From an uncultured Paracoccaceae bacterium (GTDB lineage Bacteria > Pseudomonadota > Alphaproteobacteria > Rhodobacterales > Rhodobacteraceae), in contig CANMEQ010000005.1 of assembly GCA_947497065.1 (NCBI GenBank), positions 62,001-126,000 on the forward strand: 64,000 nucleotides of DNA, written 5' to 3'. Made by a program: the position numbers and the translations under genes. How positions within the stretch are numbered: position 1 is the first letter of the stretch; each line of letters begins with the position of its first letter. Of the stretch, positions 24,536 through 33,108 are shown piece by piece. Under the pieces are notes generated by a model. That model ran no database searches and was not told where the DNA came from. It saw nothing but the letters and a program-made list of their open reading frames with translations.

Positions 24536-25301
24536 CGCGCACCACCGGCGCGCGGCGCACCTTGACCAAATCCGCCAGGATCGACAGCGCGATCTCTTCG
24601 GGGGTGAGCGCCCCGATGTTCAAACCCGCAGGGGCTTTTACCGCTTCGATCTTGGCCCGTTCAAATCCTTCGGCCTCCAGCTTGTCCGCGAGGGTCGCAA
24701 ACTTTCGCGCACTGCCCACAAAAGCCACATGGCCGCAATTGGCCGATAGGGCGGCTTTCAACGCATCCATGTCGCCTTGCCCTTGGGTGGCGATGACGAT
24801 GGCGCGTTTTGGCGTGGCCTCATCTAGCGGTCCGTCCGAAACCGCCCAGTGAAACTGCGGCGCCAATGCGGCCAAGGCTTTTGCGACGGGGGAGGTGCCC
24901 ATCACCGCCAGCTGTGGCACGGGCAAACAGGGTTCGATGAAAATATCGACCGTGCCGCGCGACGGGCATCCGTTGCTGGCGAATTTCGTGCCGTCCACTA
25001 CATCACCTGCGGCGACGCCAATCTCGGCGAGCAAGTCTTCTGGTGCCACGGAGACCAGCTGCGGCGTGCCGTCTTGCAAGGCCTGTAGCGTGGCGCGTTT
25101 CACGGCGCCTCGCGTGCATCCGCCCCCCAACCAGCCGTGCACAATCGCCCCATCTGGGCCCAACACCGCCTTGGCGCCCGGTTTTGCCGCCGTGGACCCG
25201 ACGGTGCGCACGATTGTCGCGAAGGCGAACGGTTCGGATCTGTCGCGCAGGGTTTGGGCCACGTCGGCCAGATCCTCCGATAAAAACTCGGCTGGGGTCA
25301 T
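24528..25301 (-). CDS. coxF: XdhC/CoxF-family maturation factor of CO dehydrogenase
   Basis: A 257-residue protein with the XdhC_CoxI N-terminal domain (FAFATIVRTVGSTAAKPGAKAVLGPDG, HGWLGGGCTRGAVKRA) and a C-terminal nucleotide-binding-like domain ending IGALTPEEIALSILADLVKVRR. CoxF works with CoxD and CoxE in assembling the Cu-S-Mo active site. The ATG at 25301 overlaps the coxE stop (ATGA); upstream in-frame sequence is antisense to coxE and is ignored. The order coxD-coxE-coxF fits known clusters, so I use the coxF name with moderate certainty. Confidence 0.85.
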   Translation of the reverse strand: MTPAEFLSEDLADVAQTLRDRSEPFAFATIVRTVGSTAAKPGAKAVLGPDGAIVHGWLGGGCTRGAVKRATLQALQDGTPQLVSVAPEDLLAEIGVAAGDVVDGTKFASNGCPSRGTVDIFIEPCLPVPQLAVMGTSPVAKALAALAPQFHWAVSDGPLDEATPKRAIVIATQGQGDMDALKAALSANCGHVAFVGSARKFATLADKLEAEGFERAKIEAVKAPAGLNIGALTPEEIALSILADLVKVRRAPVVRDE

Positions 25302-26482
25302 AATGTGGCAAGCTCCCGTTCCAAATCGGCCAGATCGCCTAGCGTGTTTGCCGCCTTGAACATGTCCAAATGGGGCAGGGCGGCGGCCATGCCGCTGGCG
25401 ATCGGCGCATAGTCTTTCCAGCCCTTCAGCGGGTTTAGCCAGATGATCTTGCAGCCGCGTTTGCGCAGCTTGGCGAGGGCGTCGCCCATGATGTGTGGCG
25501 GGGCTGTGTCGTAGCCATCGGACAGGATCAAAACCACCGTGCGCCCATCCACGAAACGCCGTGCGTAGGTGTCGGTGAACCGCGACAGCGACGGCCCGAT
25601 TTCGGTGCCGCCGCCAAACCCGTCGGCCATCAACGACAACCGCCCAATGGCGCGCATGGCGTCGCGGTCGCGCAGGGCCTCGGTGATGCGCACAAGCCGT
25701 GTGTGAAACAGATAGGCGTCCGCGGCGGTATCGGCGCGCATCAGCCCGGCCAAAAACGCCAGAAACACCTGCGCGTAAATCGTCATCGATCCCGACACAT
25801 CGCAAAGTGCTACGATCTTGCGGGTGCGGTCGGGGCGTTTTTTGCGCAGCAGGCGCACAGGCTCGCCCCCCGTGGACAGGCTCTCGCGGATCGTTTTGCG
25901 GAAATGCAAACGGTCGCCCTTGCGCGCGGCGATGCGACGGCGCGAGCGTTTGTCCCGCAAGGCCTCGCCCAGCCGCCGCGCCACATCTTCGGCTTCGGCG
26001 ATTTCTTCGGGGCGCACCATATCGCGCAGGTCGCGGCGCGAAAAATTGCGCACCTCGGTGGCGATCAATTTGCCCGTGCCGTCGCTTTCAGCATCGCCAC
26101 CGCCGTGATCATCGGGCGCTGTCGCTTGGCCCGCCGATCCGGTCTCTTGGCCCTTGGCATCGCGGGAGGAATGCACGTCGTCATTCATGGTTTGAGAGGT
26201 GCTGGGCACGGATTTCTGGCGCACGCGGCCCATGTCCATCCAGTAGCTGGTGAACAAGTCGTCGAACCGCTCCGCCTCGTCTTTGCAGCCGGTGCACACG
26301 GCTTTCAGCGCGCGGCGTGTTTCGTCGGGTTTGATCGCCTCAACATGGGTCAGGGCGGTTAGGGCGAGATCTGCCTCAGCCACGCCCAACCGCAGGCCGT
26401 TGTCGCGCAGGTGCGCCACAAATCCGGCCACGCGGGCGGCAGGCCCCTCATCGCGGCCAGCAAAACGGGTCACGCGGCTCAT
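25298..26482 (-). CDS. coxE: CoxE-like VWA-domain protein
   Basis: A 394-residue protein with a C-terminal von Willebrand A domain. The MIDAS motif DVSGSM lies at residues 228-233, and the later ILSDGYDT and GGGTEIGPSL segments complete the domain. The region around residues 85-145 is hydrophilic and low in order. CoxE acts with the AAA ATPase CoxD, in the manner of MoxR/VWA pairs, during metal insertion. It overlaps both neighbours by ATGA. No signal peptide is seen, so it is cytoplasmic. Confidence 0.93.
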   Translation of the reverse strand: MSRVTRFAGRDEGPAARVAGFVAHLRDNGLRLGVAEADLALTALTHVEAIKPDETRRALKAVCTGCKDEAERFDDLFTSYWMDMGRVRQKSVPSTSQTMNDDVHSSRDAKGQETGSAGQATAPDDHGGGDAESDGTGKLIATEVRNFSRRDLRDMVRPEEIAEAEDVARRLGEALRDKRSRRRIAARKGDRLHFRKTIRESLSTGGEPVRLLRKKRPDRTRKIVALCDVSGSMTIYAQVFLAFLAGLMRADTAADAYLFHTRLVRITEALRDRDAMRAIGRLSLMADGFGGGTEIGPSLSRFTDTYARRFVDGRTVVLILSDGYDTAPPHIMGDALAKLRKRGCKIIWLNPLKGWKDYAPIASGMAAALPHLDMFKAANTLGDLADLERELATL

Positions 26483-27354
26483 GCGGCGCGCCCTGCGATG
26501 CGGCCCGCCACCTCAGGCGTGATATGCGCCTGATCGCTTTGGGTTTTCAGCAAGGTGGTCAGCGTGTGCTGCAAGGCGGCGGGATCGTCGGTCAGATCGG
26601 CAATCCCAAGGCCCATCAGCGCGGCTGCGAAATCCAGCATCTCGGCCACGCCCGGTGTCTTTTCTAATTCCTCTTCGCGCAGCTTTTGCACAAAGCCCAC
26701 AACTTGGTTGCCCAAATGCGCCTCGATCTGCGGGCAGCGCGCCTTTAAAATCGAAAGCTCCGTCTGGCGGTCCGGGTAGTCGACATAGGTGTACAAGCAC
26801 CGCCGCCGCAGCGCGTCTGACAAATCGCGCGTGCCGTTGCAGGTGAGGATCACAATCGGTTTGCTGGTCGCTGTGATCGTTCCCAGCTCAGGCACGGACA
26901 CTTGGTAGTCCGACAGGATTTCCAGCAGGTAGGCTTCGAATTCTTCATCGGCGCGGTCGATCTCGTCGATCAACAATACCGGGGGTGTCTCTTTCGTAAT
27001 CGCCGCCAGCAGCGGGCGTTCCAACAGGAAATCGCGGGAGAATATACGATCCTCAACCGTTTTGCCTGTCTCACCATCCTCTGCCGCCGCACGGATCGTC
27101 AGCAGTTGGCGTTGGTAATTCCATTCGTAAATCGCCTGCGCGGCATCCAAGCCTTCGTAGCATTGCAACCGGATCAATTCAGCCTCGCGCACCGCGGCCA
27201 GCGTGCGGGCCACTTCGGTTTTGCCCACGCCCGCCGCGCCTTCCAGCAACAAAGGGCGCCCCAATGTCAGCGCCAGATGCAGTGCAACGGCCAGATCATC
27301 AGATGCAACATACCCGTCGCGCGACAGCGCGGTTTGTAAATCAGTCCAAGTCAT
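26479..27354 (-). CDS. coxD: CoxD, MoxR-type AAA+ ATPase
   Basis: A 291-residue AAA+ ATPase of the MoxR branch. Walker A is EGAAGVGKTEVA near residue 40, Walker B is LLIDEIDRADEEFEA, sensor 1 is VILTCNGTRDL, and an arginine cluster follows at LRRRCL. CoxD is a chaperone-like ATPase thought to unfold apo-CoxL so that sulfur and copper can be inserted at the molybdenum. The start is 57 bp downstream of the coxL stop, and a GC hairpin lies in that gap. Confidence 0.94.
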   Translation of the reverse strand: MTWTDLQTALSRDGYVASDDLAVALHLALTLGRPLLLEGAAGVGKTEVARTLAAVREAELIRLQCYEGLDAAQAIYEWNYQRQLLTIRAAAEDGETGKTVEDRIFSRDFLLERPLLAAITKETPPVLLIDEIDRADEEFEAYLLEILSDYQVSVPELGTITATSKPIVILTCNGTRDLSDALRRRCLYTYVDYPDRQTELSILKARCPQIEAHLGNQVVGFVQKLREEELEKTPGVAEMLDFAAALMGLGIADLTDDPAALQHTLTTLLKTQSDQAHITPEVAGRIAGRAA

Positions 27355-27411: not shown

Positions 27412-29838
27412 TTAATCGTGCAAACCCAGCTCATTGGCGGTCTTCCAGATCCGCCAGTGATCATGCGGCATGTTGGTGTGCGTCAGGCCAAAGGCACGGA
27501 ACGCATCCTGCACAGCATTGGAGAAACACGGCACGCCGCCCACGTGGGGGCTTTCGCCCACGCCCTTTGCACCGATCGGGTGATGCGGGGAGGGGGTGAC
27601 CGTGTAATCGGTCTCATAGTTTGGCACTTCCCACGCGGTTGGCAGGAAGAAGTCCATCAACGTACCGGTTTTGCAGTTGCCCATCTCATCATAGGCAATC
27701 TCTTGCCCCAAGGCGACGGCAAGCGCTTCGGTCAAACCACCATGGATCTGACCTTCGATCACCATCGGGTTGATCCGCGTGCCGCAATCATCCAGCGCAT
27801 AGAAGCGGCGGATGTCTGTGACGCCCGTATCAACATCAATGTCCATCACGCAGACATAGGCACCGAACGGATAGGTCATGTTGGGCGGATCGTAATAGCT
27901 GACCGCCTCAAGCCCTGGCTCGATCCCCGGGATTGCTTGGTTGTAGGCGGCAAAGGCAATGTCTTTCATCGTCTTGAACCGCTCCGGCGCGCCTTTGACC
28001 ACAAACCGGTCCACATCGAATTCCACATCGTCATCGTGAACTTCGAGCAGATAAGCCGCGATCATCTGGGCCTTGGCGCGGATTTTGCGCCCAACCATGG
28101 CCGCCGCCGCACCCGCAACCGGTGTGGAGCGGGACCCATAGGTGCCCAAACCGTAAGGCGCGGTATCTGTGTCGCCTTCCTCGATGGTGATGCTGTCGGC
28201 AGACAGGCCAATTTCTGTGGCCAAGATTTGCGCGAATGTCGTCGCGTGGCCCTGGCCTTGAGAAATTGTACCCAACCGCGCAATCGCCGACCCGGTGGGG
28301 TGAATGCGAATTTCACAGCTGTCGAACATGCCCATCCCAAGGATGTCACAGTTTTTGACTGGCCCCGCCCCGACAATCTCGGTGAAGAAGCTCAGCCCCA
28401 CACCCATCAGTTTGCGGGTTTTGCCAGCTTTGAAATCCTCGACCCGTTGGGCTTGCTCGGCCCGCAGACCGTCATAATCAACGGTCTTCAGCGCCTTGTC
28501 CCACGCGGTGTGGTAATCACCGGAATCGTATTCCCAGCCAAGGGCGGCCTTATACGGGAACTGCTCTTTCTTGATGAAGTTGATCCGGCGAAGCTCGGCT
28601 GCATCCATGTCCAGCTTGATCGCCAGAACTTCGATCATGCGTTCGATGAAATACACAGCCTCGGTCACACGGAACGAACAGCGGTAGCTTACGCCGCCCG
28701 GTGCTTTGTTTGTGTAGACACCGTCCACCGCCAAATAGGCCGTCGGGATGTCATAGGATCCGGTGCAGATGTTCATGAACCCAGCTGGGAACTTGGTTGG
28801 GTCAGCACAGGCGTCAAACCCACCGTGGTCGGCAGTGACGTGACAGTGCAGACCCGTGATCTTGCCCTCAGGCGTGGCGGAGATTTTCCCCTTCATCCAA
28901 TAATCCCGCGCAAAGGCGGTGGTCATCAGATTGTCCATGCGGTCTTCGATCCATTTCACAGGCTTGCCCGTGACGATGGAGGCGACCACGGAACACACAT
29001 AACCCGGATAGGCGCCCACTTTGTTGCCGAAGCCCCCACCAATGTCTGGCGAAATCACACGGATGTTGTGCTCTTCAATGCCGGAAATCAGCGAGACAAT
29101 GGTACGAATGGCGTGTGGTGCTTGGAATGTGCCCCACAGCGTCAGCTTGCCGTTCACCTTATCCATCGACGCCACACAGCCACATGTTTCCAACGGGCAG
29201 GGGTGCGTGCGGTGGTAATACATCTCCTCTTCGGCGACGATCTCGGCGTTGGCGATCACCTCTTCGGTCGGGTCTTTGTCACCGGCTTCCCAGGTGAAAA
29301 TGTGGTTGGGGTGGTTGCGTGGCCCGTGGGCCCCATCAACAGCCTTGCCGTTTTCATCCACCGTATCGGGGCGCAAAATCACATCGGACTTCAGCGCCTC
29401 AAACGGATCAACAACGACTTGAAGCTCTTCATACTCCACCTCAACCGCTTCAATCCCGTCAGCGGCGGCATAGCGGTCTTCGGCGATGACATAAGCCACC
29501 TCTTGGCCTTGGTACAAAACCTTGCCGTCGGCCAAAACCATCTGCTTGTCGCCCGCCAATGTGGGCATCCAATGCAGGCCAAGCGGTTCCAGATCGGCGG
29601 CTGTTAGAACGGCGACAACACCGGGCACCTTGAGGGCGGCTTCGGTATCGATGCTTTTGATGTTGGCATGCGCGTAGGGCGAGCGCACAAAATCACCAAA
29701 CAGCATGCCGTCCAGCTTTACGTCATCAACGTAGTTGCCTTTGCCTTGTGTGAAACGGGCATCTTCGACCCGCTTGCGTGAACACCCCATCCCTTTGAGG
29801 TTATCGACGCGTTCCTCGCGTGAGATTTCGTCCTTCAT
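27412..29838 (-). CDS. coxL: Aerobic CO dehydrogenase large subunit, form I
   Basis: An 808-residue molybdopterin hydroxylase large subunit, the catalytic part of CO dehydrogenase that oxidises CO to CO2. The form I signature AYxCSFR appears as SYRCSFR at residues 384-390, with the copper-ligating cysteine C387, equal in position to C388 of the Oligotropha enzyme; form II enzymes read AYxGAGR. Other active-site pieces are [12 protein letters not shown] (about 262-273), the [12 protein letters not shown] and YGSRST stretches, and GAKGVGES near the end with the catalytic glutamate. Length is family-typical. It overlaps coxS (ATGA) and no frameshift is seen. The serine for alanine at the first signature position is a variant worth noting. 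Confidence 0.97.
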
Positions 29839-30329
29839 TCCGCTGCCTCCTTGGCGCTGGCCATTTCAGTGGCCGCAGCCTGAATGGATTTCACGATGTT
29901 CTGGTAGCCCGTGCAGCGGCAAATATTGCCCGCCATGCCAAACCGGATTTCTTCCTCGGTCGGCATCGGATTTTCTTCCAGCAGCTTCTTGGCACGGGTG
30001 ATCATGCCCGGTGTGCAATAGCCGCACTGCAAACCGTGGTGCTCTTTGAATGCCTCTTGCAGCGGGTGCAGATCGTCCGGCCCGCCGATCCCTTCGATCG
30101 TCGTCACCTCGGCCCCGTCCGCTTGCGCCACAAACATGGTGCAGGATTTGACGGATTTGCCGTTGATCGTCACCGTGCAGGCCCCGCAGTGGGATGTTTC
30201 GCAGCCAATGTGTGGCCCGGTGATGTTCAGCCGCTCGCGCAGCGTGTAAATCAGCAGCTCCCGTGGTTCGGCCAAAAACTCTTCGTTTTTGCCGTTCACG
30301 TTCAGCTTGATGTGCATTTTATCTGACAT
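29835..30329 (-). CDS. coxS: CO dehydrogenase small subunit, 2x[2Fe-2S]
   Basis: A 164-residue iron-sulfur subunit. The N-terminal plant-type ferredoxin cluster uses C43, C48, C51 and C63; the second cluster uses C102, C105, C137 and C139 ([14 protein letters not shown]). It passes electrons from the Mo-Cu site in CoxL to FAD in CoxM. Its start is 12 bp downstream of the coxM stop, and it overlaps coxL. All eight cluster cysteines are present. Confidence 0.97.
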
Positions 30330-30341
30330 AGTCGTCCTCCC

Positions 30342-31196
30342 TTACGCCCGTGACCAAGCACGTTCGATGGTGCGGCGCAGGATCACGCCAGCCACATGGT
30401 TTTTGAATGCGATGGGGCCGCGGTTGTCTTCCGACGGATCAATGTCCTCCAACATGGCCGCAATCGCCGCCTTGATCGCCGCATCGTCAACGGTGGTGCC
30501 CACCAAAGCCTCGACAGCATCCGCAGAATAAATCGGCGTATCGCTCAGGTTGGTCATCGCCACAGACGCAAACGTGCAGGTGTCGCCATCTTTGACAATC
30601 TGAACCGCCGCCGCCGCTGTCGCGTAGTCGCCGATTTTGCGTTTCTGCTTTTCATAGGCGTAGCCGCCCTGTGGCGTGGGGATCGTGACACCGGTCAGCA
30701 CTTCGTCATCCTCGCGGTCGGTCATATAGGCCGCCTCGTAGAAGTCGCGCGCCGCAACATCGCGGGTGCCATCAGGCCCCACCAAATGAAACGTCGCATC
30801 CAGACACTGCATCAACCCCGGCATGTCATTGCCCGGATCGCCATTGGCCACATTGCCGCCAATCGTGCCCATGTAGCGCACCTGCGGATCGGCAATCTGC
30901 AACGCCGCCTCGCGCAAAATCGGCGCGGCCTTGGTCAGCTCCGCATTGTCGATCAGCTCGGCCTGCGTGACCATCGCACCAATCTTGATGCTGTCAGCGC
31001 TGACCACAATGTCGGACAGGTCTGGGACGTCCTGCAGATCGATCAAATGCGGTACATCCGCCATCCGCAATTTCATCATCGGGATCAGGCTGTGCCCCCC
31101 CGCCATAACACGGGCGTCATCGCCGTGTTCCACAAGGATGGACAGCACAGCCTCCATATCCTTGGGTCGATAATAATCAAATGCCGCTGGAATCAT
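30342..31196 (-). CDS. coxM: CO dehydrogenase medium subunit, FAD-binding
   Basis: A 284-residue FAD-binding subunit. The AGGHSLIPMMKLR and TIGGNVANGDPGNDMPG motifs bind the flavin pyrophosphate in this family; the C-terminal CO_deh_flav part includes YSADAVEALVGT. It starts with MIPAAFDYYRPKDMEAVL and is preceded by a strong GGGAGGAG ribosome binding site. It heads the structural operon coxM-coxS-coxL; the 155-bp gap upstream holds a LytTR-type repeat site and an inverted repeat. Confidence 0.97.
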   Translation of the reverse strand: MIPAAFDYYRPKDMEAVLSILVEHGDDARVMAGGHSLIPMMKLRMADVPHLIDLQDVPDLSDIVVSADSIKIGAMVTQAELIDNAELTKAAPILREAALQIADPQVRYMGTIGGNVANGDPGNDMPGLMQCLDATFHLVGPDGTRDVAARDFYEAAYMTDREDDEVLTGVTIPTPQGGYAYEKQKRKIGDYATAAAAVQIVKDGDTCTFASVAMTNLSDTPIYSADAVEALVGTTVDDAAIKAAIAAMLEDIDPSEDNRGPIAFKNHVAGVILRRTIERAWSRA

Positions 31197-31242: not shown

Positions 31243-31258
31243 GCATACGTCTGTATGC
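31243..31258. promoter_or_regulatory. Inverted repeat GCATAC-N4-GTATGC upstream of coxM
   Basis: A perfect 6-bp inverted repeat, GCATAC (31243-31248) and GTATGC (31253-31258), separated by four bases, lies about 47 bp before the coxM start codon. It could be an operator near the promoter or a leader hairpin. I could not place convincing -35/-10 boxes around it. Confidence 0.4.
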
Positions 31259-31293
31259 CGCGGCTGTAGAAAATCAATGAAACACGGGTGTTT

Positions 31294-31328
31294 TGCACGA
31301 AATGCGCCGCAGGATGCACGAACTGCGC
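31294..31328 (-). promoter_or_regulatory. LytTR-type direct-repeat site upstream of coxMSL (probable CoxC target)
   Basis: Two 14-bp direct repeats differ at one base: TGCACGAAATGCGC (31294-31307) and TGCACGAACTGCGC (31315-31328), with a period of exactly 21 bp. On the coxM coding strand the cores are GCAGTTCGT (31318-31326) and GCATTTCGT (31297-31305), separated by 12 bp. LytTR domains bind pairs of imperfect 9-bp repeats of pattern [TA][AC][CA]GTTN[AG][TG] spaced by 12-13 bp; the first core fits 8 of 9 positions, the second 7. The site lies 98-132 bp before the coxM ATG, and the adjacent gene coxC encodes a LytTR protein. Confidence 0.7.
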
Positions 31329-31351: not shown

Positions 31352-32479
31352 CTAAACCGACAGCGCATCCTGTATCGGTTTCAACTTCGACCGGCTGACA
31401 GGGGCAGGGGGCACACCGTCACCCGCAAAGAAACACCGGCCTTTGTCTTTGGCGCGCTCAAACCGGGCCACATGGGCAGGGTTCACCAGATAGCTGCGGT
31501 GCGATTGCAAGAACCCCTCGGGCACCAGTCGCTTGGTGGCCTCGGTGATGGGCCAGGAACAAAACAGATGCCCAGTGGTGGTGTAGACTTGGGTGTAATG
31601 CCCGTCTGCACGCACAAACAAAACATCAGCGGCGGGCACGAACAATTTCTTGCCATCCCGCTCGCATGGCACCTGCAACCGTACGGGCTGCTCCACCGGC
31701 TGTGCGGCAGGCGCACCCACGGTGCCCGCCTGATCCCGCATCTGTTCTGGCGTCTGATCGGGTGGCACCAGATAGGTCACGCTGACCCACAAACAGGCGC
31801 CAAAAATCACAAAGCTGAAAAACACCACGCCCAAGGCCATCGTTTCATTGCTGATCGAGGGGCCGAACTCCGCAAAGGTTGGTTCCGCCACGAAAGACGT
31901 GCCCGCCATCGCCAGAAAATGCACCGAAGCCACAGCCACCGCAAAACACAAGGTGCCCAGCAGGATGTTGCGGTTCGTGCGGTGCCCATAGGCGATCCAG
32001 ATCGCCAGAATGCACAGCCCGACCGCCGCGATCGACGACAAAATCACTGTCGGCACCGTGTACACCGCGCGGCACAGCTCCAGCCCCGCCATGCCAATGT
32101 AGTGCATCACCAAAATGCCGCCGCCCACAATGCCACCCGCCGTCGTGATCACCACCGGCGTGCGTTCCGCGAAATGCAACAGAATCAGCGCCGCCCCCAC
32201 GATCAAAATCGCCGTCAGCGCAGAGACCAGCGTGATCGCCGCATCGTAATAAAACAGGATCGGCAATTGCAGGCCCAACATCGCAACAAAATGCATCGCC
32301 CAGATGCCGCCGCCCAATGCGATGGACGCCAAAGCAACCGAAGCCTGCTTCTGCGCCATAGGTTTCGCCGACAGGTTCCGCGTCAGCGATAACCCGGTGA
32401 ATCCCGCGATAATTGCCACGACACACGACATGACAATCAACAAAGCGCTATGCGATGTTGTTAACTCCTCCATCCGCAT
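31352..32479 (-). CDS. coxC: CoxC, membrane MHYT-LytTR transcriptional regulator
   Basis: A 375-residue fusion of an MHYT sensor and a LytTR DNA-binding domain. Seven or so hydrophobic segments (about 12-238) carry the three MHYT-type motifs MHFVAM (62-67), MHYIGM (125-130) and VHFLAM (186-191), which in this family are thought to bind a metal that could sense a gas such as CO or O2. A linker (about 240-265) leads to the LytTR domain (about 266-370; FVRADGHYTQVYT, FLQSHRSYLVNPAHVARF). CoxC-type proteins occur only in CO dehydrogenase clusters such as that of Oligotropha carboxidovorans. It sits directly upstream of coxM, with a LytTR-like direct repeat between the two. Confidence 0.92.
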   Translation of the reverse strand: MRMEELTTSHSALLIVMSCVVAIIAGFTGLSLTRNLSAKPMAQKQASVALASIALGGGIWAMHFVAMLGLQLPILFYYDAAITLVSALTAILIVGAALILLHFAERTPVVITTAGGIVGGGILVMHYIGMAGLELCRAVYTVPTVILSSIAAVGLCILAIWIAYGHRTNRNILLGTLCFAVAVASVHFLAMAGTSFVAEPTFAEFGPSISNETMALGVVFFSFVIFGACLWVSVTYLVPPDQTPEQMRDQAGTVGAPAAQPVEQPVRLQVPCERDGKKLFVPAADVLFVRADGHYTQVYTTTGHLFCSWPITEATKRLVPEGFLQSHRSYLVNPAHVARFERAKDKGRCFFAGDGVPPAPVSRSKLKPIQDALSV

Positions 32480-32523: not shown

Positions 32524-33108
32524 CTAGCTGTTCATTAACGCAGAAATGATCTCTTTGGCGTTGTCACTGGCCCAATCAGCATCGCCAATAAGTCGTGCAA
32601 TTTCATTACCTTGCGGATCTAGGATCAGCGTCACGGGCAGGCCGATCACCCCCATGTCGCGCGCAAGGGCGGAATTGCCATCGGTGTGCAATGGCAAATT
32701 ATCCACCCCGATTTCAGCCAAAAATCGTTGCATCGCGGGGCGTTGGTTTACCCCAGTGGCAATCGTGACGACCTCAAAATCATCGCCACCAAACTCCGCC
32801 TGCAACTCAGACAGATGGGGCATTTCCTTGCGGCACGGGGCGCACCACGTGGCCCAGAAATTCAAAACCACATGCTTTCCCGCATAGGCGGCCAAGGTCA
32901 TGTCCTCGCCATCCTCAGAGGTAAACACCACGTCCGACCCGCGATCCGCGCCGAATTGCAGCTTCAACATGTCACCCTCGCGCATCGCTTCAAAGGCTGT
33001 GAAATCACGCGCAGCGACAGCAGGGCTTTCCCCTTGTCCCAAGGCCAAGTATAGCCCTCCGGCAATACCGATGACGGCGGCGGCTGCGAAAATCAGTGGC
33101 TTCTTCAT
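32524..33108 (-). CDS. TlpA-family thiol:disulfide oxidoreductase
   Basis: A 194-residue thioredoxin-fold protein with an N-terminal signal anchor ([23 protein letters not shown]) and the redox motif WCAPC at residues 88-92, followed by a [15 protein letters not shown] strand that carries the cis-proline. It belongs to the TlpA/ResA type that reduces periplasmic cysteines, often for cytochrome c or copper-site assembly. It is divergent from argH (30 bp between starts) and its stop is 44 bp from the coxC start. A copper- or cytochrome-related role alongside the cox cluster is possible, but the argH neighbourhood is its usual place. Confidence 0.9.

Follow-up and report, generated by a model that had tools for sequence, protein, structure and literature searches.

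The window, by which we mean the whole 64,000-nucleotide stretch that was analysed, carries an aerobic CO dehydrogenase gene cluster, and two direct repeats are found in the 155-bp gap between its coxC and coxM genes (Table 1). The genes behind the repeats are, in order, coxM, coxS, coxL, an AAA ATPase gene, a VWA CoxE-like gene, an XdhC/CoxI-type gene and a MobA-like gene. A TlpA-like thioredoxin gene (32524–33108) is located upstream of coxC on the same strand. Since coxC adjoins coxM and CoxL passes the TIGR02416 cut-off, CoxC is encoded beside coxMSL. Form I aerobic CO dehydrogenases carry the CoxL signature AYXCSFR. The CoxL motif in the window is SYRCSFR, and it was the same in 73 of the 76 sequences with the motif found (81 scanned, window included).

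CoxC contains the MHYT region as two N-terminal Pfam stretches and the LytTR domain at the C-terminal end of the same chain. The MHYT motifs of the window protein are MHFV, MHYI and VHFL, the third at residues 186–189. At this third motif, Val or Ala replaces Met in all 81 of the near sequences described below, window included. A comparison of CoxC with solved structures gave no match at E ≤ 0.01. The clusters carried on plasmids in Marivivens and Aestuarium have a FadR/GntR regulator gene ahead of coxC (L096 4102–4884, L099 4101–4883).

Table 1. Genes and sequence elements of the cox locus in window coordinates
Feature	Position	Strand	Remarks
coxE-like VWA protein	25298..26482	-	PF05762 2.7e-57
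coxD-like AAA ATPase	26479..27354	-	domain match
coxL, aerobic CO dehydrogenase large subunit	27412..29838	-	NCBIfam TIGR02416 1386.6 bits, cut-off 991.15
coxS, [2Fe-2S] subunit	29835..30329	-	domain match
coxM, CO dehydrogenase medium (FAD) subunit	30342..31196	-	first gene behind the putative operator; domain match, neighbours in relatives
Inverted repeat GCATAC-N4-GTATGC	31243..31258	.	between putative operator and coxM, ~62 bp before coxM ATG
Probable weak third copy TTCATTGA	31274..31281	-	20 bp after copy 2; inferred for the window from relatives
Putative operator copy 2, proximal to coxM	31294..31307	-	coxM strand GCGCATTTCGTGCA; core TTCGTGCA 31294-31301
Putative operator copy 1, distal to coxM	31315..31328	-	coxM strand GCGCAGTTCGTGCA; core TTCGTGCA 31315-31322
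coxC, membrane MHYT-LytTR regulator, 375 aa	31352..32479	-	Pfam PF03707 6.4e-34, PF04397 1.2e-16
LytTR DNA-binding domain of CoxC, residues 279-373	31361..31645	-	Pfam

The repeats TGCACGAAATGCGC (31294–31307) and TGCACGAACTGCGC (31315–31328) are identical at 13 of 14 positions and start 21 bp apart. On the coxM strand both copies contain an exact TTCGTGCA at the 21-bp period, fitting the RcoM1 operator consensus TTCNNGCA (PMC11347149). Copy 2 starts 111 bp 5' of the coxM ATG, and the strong copies end about 98 bp 5' of it. The first-pass annotation had described coxC as a membrane MHYT-LytTR protein, which PF03707 and PF04397 bear out. It had also placed in the coxC–coxM gap two 14-bp direct repeats with one mismatch and a 21-bp period, with cores GCAGTTCGT and GCATTTCGT 12 bp apart that fit [TA][AC][CA]GTTN[AG][TG] at 8 and 7 of 9 positions. 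The repeats and both cores were recovered as described, and a count by hand gave the same fit. A better consensus than that pattern is TTCNNGCA/TTCGTGC.

Among 14-mer pairs with at least 13 matches at a spacing of 21 bp, the repeat pair is the sole one in the window, and shuffling the window 60 times with a first-order Markov model produced no such pair. The other spacings from 15 to 27 bp were also tried, and window pairs of at least 13/14 were found at 18, 22 and 24 bp (5, 2 and 56 positions, respectively), so this pair is not the only short repeat in the window. When the gap itself was shuffled, such a pair at a spacing of 18–23 bp was obtained in 1 of 2000 shuffles. The 56 positions at the 24-bp spacing probably reflect a tandem array with a 24-bp period.

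Conservation of the repeat pair upstream of coxM

The near set was drawn from 80 loci, the best 80 of 199 in a contig scan with CoxC. The alignment contained 78 rows, that is, 77 relatives and the window, with L072, L074 and L077 left out. Two regions stood outside the counts: L072, with no coxM within its flank, and G102, with just 69 bp before coxM on its contig. In the 78 rows the pair aligned at a 21-bp step (20 bp in L010 and L080), and copy 2 started 104–115 bp before the coxM ATG. The positions of copy 2 carried 1.3–2.0 bits, and those beyond +45 mostly 0.0–0.7 bits.

A further 50 regions downstream of CoxC were added, 40 from genomes of the family and 10 from other families of the class. 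The latter represent the 10 full-length CoxC matches used from the class search, MHYT-only matches being left out. Six of the 69 plasmid records with a match were taken, five of them with coxM, and Roseivivax (2 records) and Pseudosulfitobacter were left out. The final tally covered 138 distinct coxM upstream regions, with a pair spacing of 19–22 bp and a threshold of 16/20. Six duplicate upstream regions were dropped and close, non-identical ones were kept; some of the G-numbered genomes share their species with named loci.

Of the 132 distinct clusters with CoxC, 128 had a pair of at least 16/20 before coxM; these counts are not independent events, since close but non-identical regions remain among them. 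The pair was present in 80/80 clusters of the near set (window included), 31/33 far family members, 9/10 clusters from other families of the class, 3/3 with coxC split or distant and 5/5 plasmid clusters, and in 0/1 with a divergent CoxC. Shuffles reached 16/20 in at most 0.45% per group. The median distance from the first copy to the ATG was 130 bp in both the near and the far set, compared with 149 bp in the class set. In G316, CoxC is split, with the LytTR end before coxM and the MHYT part on another contig, and the repeats are present. The CoxC clusters below the threshold were G227, G224, G579 and G017, with 15, 15, 12 and 13 of 20, respectively. The last of these, L198 (G017), has a divergent MHYT-LytTR protein before coxM that is 30% identical to the window CoxC, and its site may differ from the usual repeat.

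CoxC was present in 54 genomes of the family, of which 40 were used; besides the window's own genome this leaves 13 others, which do not enter the 132 as G genomes. Loci read later (seven to eight, G038 and G073 included, missed by the pattern search) all carried the pair at 18–20 of 20, and the remaining six CoxC genomes of the family showed a pattern match beside CoxC.

The pair was found in none of six coxM-like upstream regions without an associated CoxC according to MHYT and LytTR scans, which are weak controls because their coxM-like proteins are 45–64% identical to that of the window and were classed by the coxM-like protein, not by coxL, and because completeness is 82–83% for G008 and G583 and a LytTR protein is encoded elsewhere in G008 and G109. 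For five of these regions, scanning the genome gave no MHYT domain, whereas the sixth precedes an additional coxM-like gene in a genome that does have CoxC. G109, which has no MHYT protein, scored 15/20, a value reached by 2 of 200 shuffles. The check proposed in the first-pass annotation, that the same repeat should occur at the same relative place in other CoxC–coxM clusters, thus came out strongly in its favour. The conservation of the repeats is far beyond chance, across genera and families.

In the window's own genome, the pattern GCRNTTCGTGC-N10-GCRNTTCGTGC was matched with 0 mismatches at the window site only, the other six places having three mismatches. A looser TTCNNGCA pair had one other match, at C1:327157–327185. 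Across 248 genomes of the family, a related pattern with at most one mismatch was found at 35 places, 24 of them directly after CoxC (adjacency taken from coordinates) and 11 elsewhere, all of the latter with one mismatch. All 16 exact matches were beside CoxC. The reversed control pattern gave about 35 matches in the same 248 genomes (counted by hand); as the pattern total is not above this number, the position beside CoxC alone sets the pattern apart.

Attachment of the pair to coxM and elements downstream

The pair stays before coxM even when coxC is located apart from it, as in L074 (2518 bp), L077 (407 bp), G007 (~3.8 kb) and G511 (~11 kb). The region directly after coxC in G007 and G511 contained no pair (best 12/20). 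Because the pair remains with coxM where coxC is distant, the element belongs to coxM.

The repeats might be conserved only as coding sequence of the CoxC C-terminal tail, since in 60 of the 78 rows copy 1 falls inside the last stretch of coxC coding sequence. In the other 18 rows, the window among them, copy 1 is located after the stop, and it matches equally well there (11.1 of 12 after the stop vs. 11.0 in coding sequence; L080 scores 0 owing to its spacing of 20, which likewise puts L010, a member of the coding group, out of register). In 78/78 rows copy 2 begins beyond the coxC stop, and the pair is found with coxM when coxC is elsewhere. The coding explanation was therefore rejected, and we give it practically no credence. 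Equally hard to credit is a chance or structural repeat with no regulatory role. Chance can produce a short two-copy repeat, and other close repeats occur in the window at spacings of 18, 22 and 24 bp, but none was expected at 21 bp from the shuffles, and the pair is kept across genera and families.

When further TTCGTGC copies were sought at offsets of 9–69 after copy 2, offsets 20–21 scored best in both sets. At offset 20/21, the 43 far rows gave 4.4–4.5 of 7, compared with a mean of 3.0 (sd 0.36), and the 80 near rows gave 4.1 of 7, compared with a mean of 3.0 (sd 0.46). There is thus probably a weaker third copy 20 bp downstream of copy 2. A palindrome, AAACACCCGTGTTT, is located between copies 2 and 3 (31280–31293) and, by eye, is not clearly kept in relatives.

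The inverted repeat between the putative operator and coxM was perfect at this offset in 15/78 rows and matched at five of six positions in 15/78. Eight control offsets showed perfect palindromes in 0–1 rows and five-of-six palindromes in 0–5 rows. Position 5 of the palindrome shows A-T to G-C swaps among the rows. Searched as GCATRC-N4-GYATGC, the window copy was the sole exact occurrence in its own genome. The palindrome is a possible second operator or 5' hairpin.

Comparison with published CoxC and RcoM systems

According to the main text of PMC11347149, CoxC of A. carboxidovorans represses PcoxB, and its LytTR domain binds three TTNNNGCN repeats with a spacing of 18–21 bp. CO relieves both binding and repression, and copper is needed (PMC11347149). 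General LytTR sites are described there as a pair of 9-bp direct repeats 10–13 bp apart. The kind of system reported here is therefore already known. The first-pass annotation had read the site as the CoxC operator of a one-component circuit, in which a membrane sensor switches the CO dehydrogenase operon directly. This reading is supported by the comparison with CoxC–coxM clusters and by the homologue of the same architecture, and is amended in that the mechanism was already published in 2024, with the regulator acting as a repressor released by CO (PMC11347149).

The window locus and the CoxC/PcoxB system of Afipia (Oligotropha) carboxidovorans OM5 share an MHYT-LytTR membrane one-component regulator beside coxMSL and direct repeats whose TTNNNGC-type cores recur about every two turns of the helix (PMC11347149). 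The two CoxC proteins, however, are 29% identical, and the third MHYT motif is VHFL in the window and MHYT in A. carboxidovorans. The published OM5 operator has three copies and is located before coxB, whereas the window has two strong copies, both with an exact TTCGTGCA core, and probably one weak copy between coxC and coxM. The RcoM1 operator of Paraburkholderia xenovorans likewise consists of TTCNNGCA direct repeats spaced by 12–13 bp, read by a LytTR domain in the control of aerobic CO dehydrogenase genes (PMC11347149). RcoM1 is an activator with a heme sensor domain, while CoxC has a membrane MHYT sensor (PMC11347149). General LytTR sites resemble the window site in repeat length, 12-bp spacing and direct orientation, but the window site is nearer in sequence to the RcoM/CoxC subtype and has a likely third copy.

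In A. carboxidovorans, the coxC–coxM gap contains a triple at NC_015689.1 ~28728–28778 that scored 21/30, a value reached by 3 of 1000 shuffles. The main text of PMC11347149 does not appear to mention this triple; by text search, the name PcoxM is absent from it and coxM appears in the introduction only. In our own scan, the best triple within 350 bp upstream of the coxB start, as annotated, scored 22/30 (1 of 1000 shuffles), and the best in the nearest 282 bp before coxB scored 18/30 (367 of 1000 shuffles). The triples of Bradyrhizobium SK17, Shinella HZN7 and S. meliloti AK83, with scores of 23, 25 and 26, respectively, were reached by 0 of 1000 shuffles. On the S. meliloti AK83 plasmid (L098 6257–6307), three TTCGTGC repeats with steps of 21 and 19 come after a CoxC-like gene, and the next gene is an EAL gene, not coxM. 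Relative to the main text of PMC11347149, the new elements are the place of the operator before coxM, its strength, the depth of its conservation, the A. carboxidovorans coxC–coxM triple and the changed third MHYT motif.

Proposed control of coxMSL by CoxC

On the basis of sequence comparison, we consider it highly probable that the repeats are the coxMSL promoter operator and that the neighbouring CoxC binds them through its LytTR domain, with derepression by CO predicted from homology. The two strong TTCGTGC copies, 20–21 bp apart on one helix face, together with the weaker third copy about 20 bp downstream, would hold the membrane-anchored CoxC on the coxM promoter through its LytTR domain. 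Without CO, CoxC would most likely repress coxMSL, as inferred from its homology to CoxC of Afipia carboxidovorans. Once detected at the MHYT domain together with copper, CO would release CoxC and allow transcription of coxMSL. Repression as the sign of this control is uncertain because no promoter was placed and because the third MHYT motif has Val or Ala, not Met. With this Met missing from all the near sequences, Afipia-like sensing of CO and copper is not simply to be assumed.

The same protein at the same site could instead activate coxMSL, like RcoM1 at its promoters, which we regard as plausible though doubtful. RcoM1 and most LytTR regulators bind upstream of the -35 element and activate (PMC11347149), the copies end well before the coxM ATG, and a consensus scan found no sigma-70-like promoter; such a lack of a good -35/-10 pair is compatible with an activator-dependent promoter. 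Activation is disfavoured by the MHYT-LytTR regulator of PMC11347149 being a repressor, and by TTTCATTGATTTTCTAAAGC downstream of copy 2, a block that shows conservation across the near set and may represent the core promoter, so that the repeats would be located on or next to the -35 element. It is very unlikely that the true reader is another LytTR protein, be it an RcoM-like regulator or either of the two further membrane LytTR proteins that the genome encodes. The RcoM1 motif is nearly identical (PMC11347149) and the genome does have two further LytTR matches, L082 and L083, but both are short membrane proteins encoded on other contigs, neither showing an MHYT motif by eye, and the site accompanies CoxC in 128/132 clusters and is missing in the six weak controls without it. 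L082 and L083 (own genome C2 and C3) each have a VHRSHW motif.

A broader joint reading is offered as speculation that we consider unlikely to hold in full. The coxC–coxM operator would be ancestral and the main target of CoxC, also in A. carboxidovorans, where PcoxB would be secondary. Most roseobacters would carry the operator in the last codons of their own regulator gene, and the roseobacter sensor, with Val or Ala in the third motif, would have an altered copper site tuned to low seawater CO. The conserved palindrome downstream would provide a further level of control.

Marine roseobacters are regarded as important oxidisers of CO. A literature search of titles and abstract beginnings found no paper on coxMSL regulation in marine roseobacters. 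To specialists who know the 2024 paper the site is expected, and its strength, place and depth of conservation are useful. The results suggest that, in addition to the published CoxC operator, A. carboxidovorans may have another. For coxMSL, they provide an exact putative operator and its putative regulator, kept in nearly every CoxC cluster examined.
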